Shown: positions 779-4,934 of the stretch, one piece after another
Position numbering within the stretch: position 1 is the stretch's first letter
How the letters are laid out: the number at the start of each line of letters is the position of its first letter
Assembly: GCA_016188625.1 (NCBI GenBank)
Contig: JACPHL010000216.1
Location: forward strand, 1 to 5,219
Length of the DNA stretch: 5,219 nt
Reading direction: 5' to 3'
Origin: Candidatus Rokuibacteriota bacterium
GTDB lineage: Bacteria; Methylomirabilota; Methylomirabilia; Rokubacteriales; JACPHL01
The notes under the pieces: generated by a model
The model's database searches: none
Seen by the model: only the letters and a program-made list of their open reading frames with translations
Told to the model about the DNA's origin: nothing
Position numbers and translations under genes: made by a program

Positions 779-1582
779 TCATGATCCGGGCCGCGCGGGG
801 CCGCAAGCGGCCTCCAGCACCTCGAGCATGGCTGGATGGAGCTTCCCGTTGGTGGCCAGCACCCCGGGGCCGGCCAGCGTGAAGGGGCCGCCCTGGACGT
901 TGGTCACCACGCCGCCCGCCTCCCGGACGACGAGGCTCCCGGCCGCCAGGTCCCAGGGGCCGAGGGCCAGCTCCCAGTAGCCGTCGAACCGCCCGGCCGC
1001 GACGTAGCAGAGGTCGAGGACCGCCGAGCCGATCCGCCGGACGGCGCGGGCGCGGAGGCTGAAGGCGGCGAACTCGGAGAGGTTGGTGCGGGTGGTGGAG
1101 CGGATGGTGTAGGGGAAGCCGGTGGCCAGGAGGCTCTCGTTCAGGGCCGCCGTCTCCGAGACCCGGATCGGCTCGCCGTTGAGGGAGGCCCCGCCCCCGC
1201 GCTCGGCGACGAAGAGCTCCTCCAGGTTGGGGTCGTAGGCGACCCCGAGGACGATCTCGCCGGCGGCCTCGAGGGCGATGGCGACGCAGAACATCGGCAG
1301 CCCGTGGGCGTAGTTGGTGGTCCCGTCCAGGGGGTCGATGATCCACCGGTACTCGGAGGGCCCGCCCTGCACCCCGCCCTCCTCGGCCAGGATCCCGTGG
1401 TCGGGGTAGGCCTCGCAGAGGATCTCGACGATCGCGCGCTCCGCGCGCCGGTCCATCTCGGTGACGAGGTTGATGGCGCTCGCCCCCTTGTAGCTGATCC
1501 GGCGTACCCCGCCCAGCTCCTGGCGGAGGAGCTTGCCCGCGGTGCGGGCGGCCTCGATGGCGATCGTCGCGAAGGCGGTCAC
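779..1582 (-). CDS. suhB: Inositol monophosphatase family protein (SuhB-like)
   Basis: Mg2+-dependent sugar/inositol phosphate phosphatase, 267 residues, a normal length for the family. All metal-site motifs are intact: NLVTEMD (38-44), AEEGG (66-70), WIIDPLDGTTNYAHG (80-94, with Asp83 and Asp86), and WDLAAG with EAGG (210-215, 221-224). RRIGSAVLDLCYVAAGRFDG (182-201) is typical of bacterial SuhB-type enzymes. The likely reaction is hydrolysis of myo-inositol 1-phosphate, but members of this superfamily also act on histidinol phosphate, fructose 1,6-bisphosphate or other sugar phosphates, and the sequence does not settle which. The frame is open upstream to 1723, but the GTG at 1582 matches the family N-terminus and has AAGGT 7 bases upstream. 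It is transcribed divergently from the RNase H-like gene and is followed after 40 bases by the aldehyde dehydrogenase. The symbol is by family resemblance only. Confidence 0.93.
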   Translation of the reverse strand: MTAFATIAIEAARTAGKLLRQELGGVRRISYKGASAINLVTEMDRRAERAIVEILCEAYPDHGILAEEGGVQGGPSEYRWIIDPLDGTTNYAHGLPMFCVAIALEAAGEIVLGVAYDPNLEELFVAERGGGASLNGEPIRVSETAALNESLLATGFPYTIRSTTRTNLSEFAAFSLRARAVRRIGSAVLDLCYVAAGRFDGYWELALGPWDLAAGSLVVREAGGVVTNVQGGPFTLAGPGVLATNGKLHPAMLEVLEAACGPARPGS

Positions 1583-1667
1583 GCGTTCTACCTTAGCACA
1601 GGCGGGGGCGCGCGTCGAATGTCGCCACGCCTTGACGGATTCCCCGAGAGGATGGTATACGGGGGAC
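1583..1667. promoter_or_regulatory. Divergent intergenic region between phosphatase and RNase H-like genes
   Basis: These 85 bases must serve both outward transcription units. The rightward promoter is described separately. On the minus strand a weak candidate is TAAGGT (1595 to 1590), preceded by TGC as in an extended -10 and lying 7 bases before the GTG at 1582; TTCGAC at 1619 to 1614 sits 18 bases upstream. The AAGGT within it could equally be a ribosome binding site, so the two readings cannot be separated by eye. The palindrome GTATAC (1655-1660) offers a -10-like core on both strands. Confidence 0.4.
1632..1661 (+). promoter_or_regulatory. Sigma70-type promoter of the RNase H-like gene
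   Basis: TTGACG (1632-1637) and TATACG (1656-1661) are separated by 18 bases, matching 5 of 6 and 4 of 6 positions of the housekeeping consensus. They stand out in this GC-rich background. The usual initiation distance places the transcript start at about 1668, which is the G of the predicted GTG start codon, so the mRNA would have little or no leader. Inferred from sequence only. Confidence 0.6.
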
Positions 1668-2093
1668 GTGGGCACCAAGCCGAAGCACGACGAGCGACCG
1701 ATCCTCATCGTCACCGGGAGCATCGGGCGCGGGTTCGGACCGGGCGGGTGGGGCTTCGTGATCTGCTATCCGTCCGGGCAGGAGGTCGAGGCCGCGGGCG
1801 CGGAGCCGGAGACGACCGGTCATCGCATGGCGCTCACCGCGGTGATCCGCGCCCTCGAGCGGCTCGATCCCAAGGAGCGCCTGGCGGTCCGGGTCGTGAG
1901 CGCGAGCCCGTACGTCGTGGACGGGGCCCTGGGGAAGGTCGAGCGCAAGGCGAACGAGGACCTCTGGGCGGAGCTCGATGAGCGGGCCAAGGGGCGGAGC
2001 ATCGCCTGGGAGTGGGAGCCCGAGCAGACCATGTACTACCAGGAGCGGGCGGTGGAGCTGGCGACCGAGGTCGTGAAGCGGCTCAAGGGGTGA
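1668..2093 (+). CDS. RNase HI-fold protein lacking the catalytic residues (predicted inactive)
   Basis: 141-residue protein with recognisable RNase HI layout: a first strand with VTGS and GPGGWG (15-18, 24-29), an RMALTAVIRAL helix (53-63), a VVSASPYVVDG strand (76-86), DLW..LDE (98-105), WEW (114-116) and a C-terminal QERAVELA helix (125-132). The residues that bind catalytic metal in E. coli RNase HI (D10, E48, D70, D134) align with Thr16, Ala55, Ala79 and Val129, and the His of the active-site loop is absent. It is therefore probably not a nuclease; binding of an RNA/DNA hybrid or a protein partner is speculation. The GTG at 1668 has no well-spaced ribosome site but lies 6 bases after a -10 hexamer, suggesting leaderless translation. 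No other in-frame start fits before residue 54. The PanE-like gene begins 5 bases after the stop. Confidence 0.8.
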   Translation: MGTKPKHDERPILIVTGSIGRGFGPGGWGFVICYPSGQEVEAAGAEPETTGHRMALTAVIRALERLDPKERLAVRVVSASPYVVDGALGKVERKANEDLWAELDERAKGRSIAWEWEPEQTMYYQERAVELATEVVKRLKG

Positions 2094-2098
2094 GGGGC

Positions 2099-3034
2099 GT
2101 GCGGATCGCGGTGGTGGGGAGCGGCGGGATCGGCGGGTACTTCGGGGGATGCCTGGCCAGGGCCGGGGAGGCGGTGACCTTCCTCGCCCGGGGGGAGCAC
2201 CTCCGCGCCATCCAGGCCCGGGGTCTCGCGGTGAAGAGCCCCCACGGGGACTTCACGGTCGAGGCCCCCGCCACCGACGACCCCCGCGCCGTCGGGCCGG
2301 TGGACCTGGTGCTCTTCTCGGTGAAGTCGTACGACACCGAGGCCGCGGCCGGGGCGATCCGCCCCCTCCTGGGGCCCGAGACCGCCGTGCTCACCCTCCA
2401 GAACGGGGTGGACAACGAGGAGCGGCTCGGCCGCCTCCTCGGGACCGAGCGGATCCTCGGGGGCGCGGCCTTCATCATGTCCGTCATCGAGGCCCCGGGC
2501 GTGATCGCCCACACCTTCGGGGGCCGGATCATCTTCGGGGAGCTCGACGGCTCGGAGACCCCCCGCGCCCGGCGGATCCTGGAGCGGTTTGCCGCGGCCG
2601 GGATCCGGGCCGAGCTCTCGACGGCGATCGGGAGGGTGCTCTGGGAGAAGTATCTCCTCATCGCCGCGGTGGCGGGGATGACGGCCCTGAGCCGGCGGCC
2701 CATCGGGGAGATCCGCGCCTGCCCCGAGGCCCGCCGGATGTGCCGGGGGATCCTCGAGGAGCTGGCCGCCCTCGCCAAGGGGAGCGGGGTCGCCCTCGAC
2801 CCCGACGCGGTGGACCGCACCCTGGGCGCCATCGACCGCCTCGCCCCCGGCATGTACTCTTCCCTCTACCACGACCTTACCCACGGCAAGCGTCTCGAGC
2901 TGGAGGCGCTGCACGGCCACGCGGTCCGGCTCGGCGAGCGCCTCCGGATCCCTACCCCCATGACCTTCGCGGTCTACGCCGCGCTCCGGCCCCACGCGGT
3001 GGCCATCGAGTCCGGTCCGCAACCCCACGGGTAG
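2099..3034 (+). CDS. Ketopantoate reductase (PanE/ApbA) family protein
   Basis: 311-residue cytoplasmic NADPH-dependent reductase of the family that converts 2-dehydropantoate to pantoate in pantothenate synthesis. The N-terminus carries the Rossmann motif GSGGIGGYFG (7-16), followed by SVKSYD with Lys76 and LQNGV with Asn102. In the C-terminal domain, Lys184 (LWEKYL), Ser255 (SSLYHDL) and Glu267 (KRLELE) align with E. coli K176, S244 and E256. The three pocket Asn of E. coli (N180, N184, N194) are Ile188, Ala192 and Ile202, so this may be a paralogue with another 2-oxoacid substrate; no symbol is given. The GTG at 2099 yields the expected VRIAVVG start and has AAGGGG 8 bases upstream. A GTG at 2090 overlapping the previous stop would add three residues but is poorly placed for a ribosome site. 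Probably co-transcribed with the RNase H-like gene. Confidence 0.9.
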   Translation: MRIAVVGSGGIGGYFGGCLARAGEAVTFLARGEHLRAIQARGLAVKSPHGDFTVEAPATDDPRAVGPVDLVLFSVKSYDTEAAAGAIRPLLGPETAVLTLQNGVDNEERLGRLLGTERILGGAAFIMSVIEAPGVIAHTFGGRIIFGELDGSETPRARRILERFAAAGIRAELSTAIGRVLWEKYLLIAAVAGMTALSRRPIGEIRACPEARRMCRGILEELAALAKGSGVALDPDAVDRTLGAIDRLAPGMYSSLYHDLTHGKRLELEALHGHAVRLGERLRIPTPMTFAVYAALRPHAVAIESGPQPHG

Positions 3035-3152: not shown

Positions 3153-3158
3153 CTTGGT

Positions 3159-4934
3159 ATGCCCCTCCGGATCCTCGTCGGCTATCTCCGTCGCCAGCGC
3201 CCCCGCTACCTCGTCGGCCTCACCCTCCTCCTCCTGAGCAACGCCTTCGCCCTGGCGATCCCCTGGATCCTGATGGGCGCCATCGAGGCGATCAGGACCG
3301 GCACCACCGTGGCCGCCCTGACCGGATCGGCCCTCGCGATCGTCCTCCTGGCCTCGCTCCAGGGCCTGACCCGCGCCTGGTCCCGCTTCGCCCTCCTCGG
3401 GGCCAGCCAGCGGGTGGAGGCCCGGATCCGCGACGACCTCTTCGCCCGGCTCCTCCGCCTCCCCCCGGCGTTCTACCAGACCCAGCGCACCGGGGACCTC
3501 ATGTCGCGCGCCACCAACGACCTCCAGGCCGTGGCCATGCTCATCGGCTTCGGCTTCCTCTCGCTGGCGAACACCGCCATCATCTACCTCGGCACCCTGG
3601 GGGCTATGCTCCGGATCGACCCCTGGCTCACCCTCTACGCCCTCGCCCCGTACCCGGCCCTCATCGCCCTGGCCAAGCGCCTGAACGGCCGCCTCCACGC
3701 CGAGACCCTCGCGGTCCAGGAGCAGCTCTCCGAGCTGTCGGCCAAGGTCCAGGAGAACCTCACGGGGGCGGCGGTGGTCCGGGCCTACGCCATGGAGCCC
3801 CGGGAGGTCGGCGCCTTCGCCCGGCTGAACGCCGAGTACCTCCGCCGGAGCCTCCGCGCCCTCCGGACCCAGGGGGCCTTCTCGCCCCTCATGGGGATCA
3901 TGGGCGGGGTCGGGACCCTGACCGTGCTCTGGCTCGGGGGGAAGGCGGTCGTGGACGGGCGGATCACCCTGGGGGCCCTGGTGGCCTTCTCGAGCTACCT
4001 CGCCTTCCTCACCTGGCCGACGATCGCCCTCGGCTGGGTCCTCTCCATCGTCCGGCGCGGCCTCACCGCCATGGAGCGGGTCGTCGAGGTCCTCACGGTC
4101 GAGCCGGCCGTCGCCGACGGGCCGGAGGCCCGGGGGCCGGTGGCGATCCAGGGGGCGATCGAGTTCCGCGACCTGAGCTTCGCCTACGACGGTCGGGACC
4201 CGGCCCTCCGGGGGATCTCGCTCGCGATCCCCGCCGGCGCCTGCGTCGCGGTCGTCGGCCCCACCGGGGCGGGGAAGACCACCCTGGCCGCCCTGATCCC
4301 CCGACTCTGGGACCCGCCGCGCGGCCGGCTCTTCATCGACGGGCGCGAGATCCACACGATCCCGCTCGCGGACCTCCGGCGGGCCATCGGGTACGTCCCC
4401 CAGGAGACCTTCCTCTTCTCCCGCCCCCTCGCCGAGAACCTGGCCCTCGGCGGCGGCGACGGCCGGCTCGGCTGGGCGGCGAGGGTCGCCGGGCTCGCCG
4501 ACGAGGTCGCGGCGTTCCCCGAGGGGTGGGGGACCGTGGTCGGCGAGCGGGGGCTGACCCTCTCCGGCGGCCAGCGCCAGCGGGCCGCCCTGGCGCGCGC
4601 CCTCCTGGTGGATCCCCGGATCCTCATCCTCGACGACCCCTTCTCGAGCGTGGACGCCGAGAAGGAGGCCGAGATCCTCGCCGGGCTCCGGGAGGTCCGG
4701 CGCGGCCGGACCACCCTCCTCATCTCCCACCGCCTCCGGGCCGCGCGCGAGGCCGATCGGATCATCGTCCTCGACGGGGGGGAGATCGTGGAGGAGGGGA
4801 CCCACGACGAGCTGCTCGCCCGGGAGGGGGTGTACGCGCGGCTCTGGCGGCGGCAGCGGCTCGAGGAGACCCTGGAGCGCTTCGGCGGCACCCCCGTCCC
4901 CGCGGGAGGGTCGCCGGGGGGGAGCGGGCCGTGA
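3159..4934 (+). CDS. ABC exporter, fused permease/ATPase, subunit 1 with degenerate ATP site
   Basis: 591-residue half-transporter of the inner membrane, a normal length for the type. Six membrane segments lie at roughly 17-40, 54-75, 126-150, 153-174, 240-262 and 268-295, with the exporter motif GDLMSRATNDL at 112-122. The ATPase domain starts near 334: Walker A GPTGAGKT (367-374), Q-loop Gln415, signature LSGGQ (468-472), Walker B ILILD (488-492) and His524 of the switch. The catalytic Glu after Walker B is Asp493, as in the first subunit of heterodimeric exporters such as BmrC/YheI or TM287, so its own ATP site is probably weak and the partner supplies the active one. The cargo (drug, lipid or peptide) is unknown. 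The ATG at 3159 follows a TATAAT by 6 bases and has no ribosome site; the frame is open back to a GTG at 3096, but that would cross the hairpins. It overlaps the next gene by 4 bases. Confidence 0.95.
   Translation: MPLRILVGYLRRQRPRYLVGLTLLLLSNAFALAIPWILMGAIEAIRTGTTVAALTGSALAIVLLASLQGLTRAWSRFALLGASQRVEARIRDDLFARLLRLPPAFYQTQRTGDLMSRATNDLQAVAMLIGFGFLSLANTAIIYLGTLGAMLRIDPWLTLYALAPYPALIALAKRLNGRLHAETLAVQEQLSELSAKVQENLTGAAVVRAYAMEPREVGAFARLNAEYLRRSLRALRTQGAFSPLMGIMGGVGTLTVLWLGGKAVVDGRITLGALVAFSSYLAFLTWPTIALGWVLSIVRRGLTAMERVVEVLTVEPAVADGPEARGPVAIQGAIEFRDLSFAYDGRDPALRGISLAIPAGACVAVVGPTGAGKTTLAALIPRLWDPPRGRLFIDGREIHTIPLADLRRAIGYVPQETFLFSRPLAENLALGGGDGRLGWAARVAGLADEVAAFPEGWGTVVGERGLTLSGGQRQRAALARALLVDPRILILDDPFSSVDAEKEAEILAGLREVRRGRTTLLISHRLRAAREADRIIVLDGGEIVEEGTHDELLAREGVYARLWRRQRLEETLERFGGTPVPAGGSPGGSGP
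4919..4924 (+). promoter_or_regulatory. Shine-Dalgarno site of ABC subunit 2
   Basis: GGGGAG lies inside the end of the upstream ABC gene, 6 bases before the GTG at 4931. It supports the 4-base GTGA stop/start overlap as the true start and implies translational coupling of the two subunits, consistent with a 1:1 complex. Confidence 0.65.

Follow-up and report, generated by a model that had tools for sequence, protein, structure and literature searches.

The window, the whole 5,219-nucleotide stretch analysed here, belongs to a Rokubacteriales genome bin (G000) of 2.6 Mb that is 84% complete. It contains a gene for an RNase HI-like protein lacking the catalytic acids (pseudo-RNase HI), located between a divergent inositol monophosphatase family gene and genes for a ketopantoate reductase homologue and ABC transporters (Table 1). 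The reading frame of the pseudo-RNase HI is open from its GTG start through all 141 residues. A promoter-like pair, TTGACG (1632–1637) and, after 18 nt, TATACG (1656–1661), ends some 6 nt upstream of the GTG, so that any leader would be very short or none. In five relatives TTGACA stands in a comparable position, without a clear −10 box.

Table 1. Features of the window and residues of the pseudo-RNase HI at the catalytic positions of E. coli RNase HI.
Feature	Position (nt)	Strand	Description and evidence
Inositol monophosphatase family gene	779..1593	-	Divergent neighbour; PF00459; true start probably near 1584-1593
Pseudo-RNase HI CDS	1668..2093	+	141 aa, GTG start, TGA stop; translation, PF00075, AlphaFold2 model and fold match, conserved family
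Gly17 codon	1716..1718	+	Catalytic Asp10 position; in the nine clade members Ser 6, Gly 2, Ala 1; alignment
Ala55 codon	1830..1832	+	Catalytic Glu48 position; Glu kept in 7/9 members, Ala in 2; alignment
Ala79 codon	1902..1904	+	Catalytic Asp70 position; in the nine members Ala 8, Ser 1; alignment
New motif EWEPxxTMxxQxxA, residues 115-128	2010..2051	+	Replaces the active-site loop with His124; invariant columns
Val129 codon	2052..2054	+	Catalytic Asp134 position; in the nine members Tyr 5 and one each of Val, Ala, Gly, His; alignment
Ketopantoate reductase PanE/ApbA homologue	2099..3034	+	5 nt downstream, probably in the same operon; PF02558, PF08546
ABC transporter, membrane and ATPase domains	3156..4934	+	PF00664, PF00005; synteny
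Second ABC transporter gene	after 4934, cut by the window end		Follows the first ABC transporter gene

The protein matches the Pfam family PF00075 (RNase_H) with an E-value of 9.8e-9 and 35.9 bits, above the curated cut-off of 25.8. It matches the NCBIfam ribonuclease HI model NF001236 (E 4.6e-16) with 58.7 bits, far under the equivalog cut-off of 160, and a HMMER search of PDB sequences found solved RNases HI, the strongest at E 1.8e-8. An AlphaFold2 model reached a pLDDT of 93.8 and a pTM of 0.87. The input alignment combined the window protein and five Rokubacterial copies with 36 other RNase HI sequences; since most of these are active enzymes, the model leans towards the RNase HI fold and cannot be taken as evidence separate from the sequence homology. 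The top Foldseek match of the model was E. coli RNase HI (E 2.4e-12), and the best VIA-align superposition was that on C. tepidum RNase H1 (Z 21.0, rmsd 1.9 over 128 residues). The sequence matches and the predicted structure confirm the protein as an RNase HI homologue with a predicted RNase H fold, as the preliminary description of this DNA had proposed from sequence landmarks.

Residues were compared by aligning the window protein and its clade with E. coli RNase HI and with 65 acid-retaining RNases HI as references. Among these 65 reference enzymes, D10, E48 and D70 are each present in all, D134 in 61, and the active-site histidine H124 in 64. The window protein has Gly17, Ala55, Ala79 and Val129 instead of the DEDD metal ligands of ribonuclease HI, and glutamine at the H124 position. 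The preliminary description was thus right that all four acids are replaced and the loop histidine is absent, and its assignments of E48, D70 and D134 agree with the alignment. Its pairing of D10 with Thr16 was mistaken: Thr16 pairs with E. coli Thr9, and Gly17 replaces Asp10. Gly17 occupies this position in the 65-enzyme alignment, with a gap only in the HMMER and MAFFT alignments.

Strong copies of the gene are carried by nine of 59 Rokubacteriales genomes, the window's own included, and the carriers span four families. The other eight copies are 49–63% identical to the window protein over the alignment. A clade profile run over 95 genomes of the phylum recovered the same nine and otherwise RNases HI only (E 1.5e-18 or weaker); beyond the nine carriers, the genomes sampled from the phylum thus showed no pseudo-RNase HI. 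A scan of genome_contigs gave no match with the window protein as the query; with a relative as the query it found five Rokuibacteriota copies and other RNases HI. The 30 clade-profile matches read from a 400-genome sample of Chloroflexota were all acid-bearing enzymes or partly decayed relatives. The nine copies are monophyletic in two trees, with supports of 100/99 and 100/100. None contains an internal stop, and each comes from a separate MAG. Nei–Gojobori dN/dS is 0.09–0.22 among the five closest members and 0.22–0.32 between these and G025, which indicates purifying selection on the six; it reaches up to 0.7 in more distant pairs, but their large dS makes them less informative.

The acids are lost throughout the clade. 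D10, D70, D134 and H124 are missing from all nine members, and in the alignment no member has another acid at the position of D10, D70 or D134. The replacing residues vary, so what the clade has in common is the loss and not the exact Thr/Ala/Ala/Val pattern for which the preliminary description had proposed to search. E48 is replaced only in the window protein and G003, and was probably the last of the acids to be lost. The minor-groove contacts of RNase HI, N16 and N44, which are kept in 64 and 65 of the 65 active enzymes, respectively, are lost in all nine members. K122 is proline in all nine, and the basic protrusion (W81 to K91) is absent from the clade; the preliminary description had mentioned none of these further losses. 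T43 (eight members, serine in the ninth) and N100 (all nine), which form part of the DNA-phosphate pocket, are kept, as are R46, S71 and Y73. The pI is near 9 in seven of the nine members and 5.8 in the window protein.

A new motif occupies the place of the active-site loop. WEWEPxxTMxxQxxA is invariant in the clade, where active enzymes have a loop with K122, G123, H124 and N130. Fourteen positions, including C33, R75 and A79, hardly vary within the clade but carry residues that are seldom seen in active enzymes; five of them (E117, P118, T121, M122 and Q125) fall within the old loop.

The gene has a fixed position. Eight carriers have the divergent inositol monophosphatase gene upstream; in G025 the stretch just upstream resembles, by eye, the end of a CorA-like gene. 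On the contigs that allow a view, the ketopantoate reductase gene lies within about 30 nt downstream in eight carriers and is mostly followed by two ABC transporter genes. Relatives lacking the pseudo-RNase HI have the same neighbours with the slot empty or, as judged by eye, holding a CorA-like gene; therefore, gene order alone proves no partner. By eye, a CorA-like transporter gene fills the slot between phosphatase and reductase in L163, L164, L166 and L168. The carriers form one side of the ABC transporter tree, yet they fall into two groups on the trees of the reductase and the phosphatase, a pattern that fits either one gain or an older origin followed by loss.

The active enzymes nearest to the clade resemble short-loop RNases HI from Binatia-like and Dehalococcoidia genomes; the stem leading to the clade is long, and its placement varies between trees. 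Derivation in place from the canonical Rokubacterial rnhA was rejected, because the locus is different and the two form separate clades, although a tree joining the clade with that of canonical rnhA was not rejected (p-AU 0.07). A viral origin was also discarded, as no relatives were found in viral_contigs and the phrog_531 match reflects the general RNase H family. PADLOC models of anti-phage defence gave no match up to E 0.1. The Binatia-like RNases HI (L039–L044, L046, L048, L061) have no basic protrusion, and most of them carry a C-terminal CxxC...C extension that resembles a zinc motif. L053, L193, L195 and L202, from Dehalococcoidia-like genomes, are RNases HI fused to a C-terminal part; in L053 and L193 this part looks MoaC-like by eye. 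The active-site histidine and D134 are missing from L053 and probably from L195.

The carriers possess other RNases H. RNase HII is present in all nine. Canonical bacterial rnhA (PF00075, E 1.6e-33 or better), which sits after genes reading as mutS2, dnaG, rpoD and a zinc-ribbon protein, was found in 38 of 50 non-carriers and in none of the nine carriers. The carriers cluster on the trees, so this exclusivity represents few events, perhaps one or two; counting them as nine independent cases was rejected. The source genome contains an archaeal-type RNase HI with the acids (G000:C196, L003:1474-1896) beside zinc-ribbon and rpoD genes, in the place where many relatives have canonical rnhA. The intact second RNase HI that the preliminary description had suggested looking for is thus present, but it is of the archaeal type and is not the canonical bacterial gene. 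Archaeal-type copies occur in five of the nine carriers (G000, G019, G025, G028, G037) and in the non-carrier G033; none was detected in the other four carriers, two of which have incomplete genomes.

Based on these observations, a history of the protein can be proposed. Loss of D10 and D70 should abolish the metal sites, as is established for E. coli RNase HI. Hydrolysis is therefore very unlikely, and from the sequences we infer that the family lacks RNase H activity. We are confident that the family is catalytically dead and under selection: nine members of one clade share the loss, the closer ones have dN/dS of 0.09–0.32, and the position is fixed and the predicted fold confident. The claim that the protein was kept and has not decayed is supported, and neither of two refuting conditions named in the preliminary description held: the predicted fold is that of RNase H, and the close homologues lack the acids as well. 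An RNase HI may have lost two-metal catalysis in the ancestor of the carriers and then been retained as a non-cleaving binding protein. The protein probably serves another, non-cutting binding job. This stable pseudoenzyme reading as a whole we favour with modest confidence. The new loop together with purifying selection argues for a new partner or ligand, and the invariant EPxxTMxxQ that has replaced the old active-site loop would, with the remodelled cleft, make up a putative site where a protein partner or a small ligand binds instead of an RNA:DNA hybrid. That the cleft binds in this manner is a tentative proposal, about as open to doubt as to belief. More speculative, and rather unlikely in our estimate, is a role of the old cleft as a ligand or protein site regulating the adjoining reductase and ABC transporter operon or another RNase H, which would make the protein a convergent bacterial counterpart of the retroviral tether.

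Other functions of a retained protein are less probable. A non-cleaving nucleic-acid binder could grip the backbone of a DNA or RNA:DNA duplex through the retained RNase H surface and protect or mark the duplex. The T43 and N100 equivalents, R46, S71 and Y73, the basic pI of most members, and the predicted RNase H fold speak for it; the loss of N16 and N44, the K122 proline, the missing protrusion and the acidic pI of the window protein speak against it and disfavour a simple hybrid binder. We regard this function as unlikely. The preliminary suggestion of retention for another task stands, whereas its example of hybrid binding is weakened. It is improbable that the protein serves the cell's own archaeal-type RNase HI or its RNase HII, either as a non-catalytic subunit or as a regulator. 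The presence of these enzymes in carriers and the mutual exclusion with canonical rnhA would agree with such a role, but four carriers lack a detected archaeal-type copy, the exclusion may reflect one or two evolutionary events, and the genes are unlinked.

It is very improbable that the protein remains a nuclease whose active site has moved, built for example from Glu117 and other acids: Glu117 is new and invariant, but E48 is gone from the window protein and G003, and the other three acidic positions are not refilled in any member. The least credible reading is that the gene is a relic in decay or an artefact of assembly or sequencing. The variation at positions 10 and 134 and the stepwise loss of E48 could be read as decay, but nine separate MAGs with open frames, the new invariant motif, and dN/dS well below 1 in closer pairs oppose it. 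Sequencing error and decay were rejected on the strength of the nine MAGs and the selection, which already refute an artefact.

For an enzyme as well known as RNase HI, a selected stand-alone bacterial version without catalytic acids makes the use of the fold without catalysis testable. Automatic annotation would probably name such genes ribonuclease HI, which would make the number of RNase H genes counted in a genome misleading. The preliminary description knew of no named family with this pattern, and we likewise found neither a named family with it nor a description of these proteins in the open-access literature, preprints aside, on inactive bacterial RNase HI and Rokubacterial RNase H. 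RNase H domains that have degenerated are known from other systems, such as the retroviral tether; the stand-alone Rokubacterial pseudo-RNase HI is apparently undescribed.

The window protein shares with bacterial RNase HI (E. coli RnhA) the fold, the GPGGWG, RM, DLW and WEW landmarks, and about 30–34% identity, and differs in lacking the four acids, His124, N16, N44 and the basic protrusion. The RNases HI of Halobacterium and B. subtilis probably keep the metal-binding acids, which the Rokubacterial clade has lost. Like the clade, the Halobacterium enzyme and B. subtilis NP_390082 have no basic protrusion. Halobacterium RNase HI, without the catalytic-site histidine and the protrusion, is yet active (PMC9719913); the B. 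subtilis enzyme did not show nuclease activity (PMC1950709). Tandem RNases HI of Chloroflexota (L052, L055, L057, L062, L063, L064) have an intact first domain and a second, RNase HI-like domain in which D10, D70 and D134 are replaced by Arg, Thr and Gly. These second domains share the loss of the three acids with the Rokubacterial clade; however, they are fused behind an intact RNase HI, keep E48, N16, N44 and the protrusion, and form a separate clade of their own (support 100/100). The retroviral tether, or connection, is an RNase H domain that was retained after degenerating (PMC9040795). Within the Pol polyprotein the tether adjoins an RNase H that was acquired anew, whereas the Rokubacterial gene is stand-alone and chromosomal.
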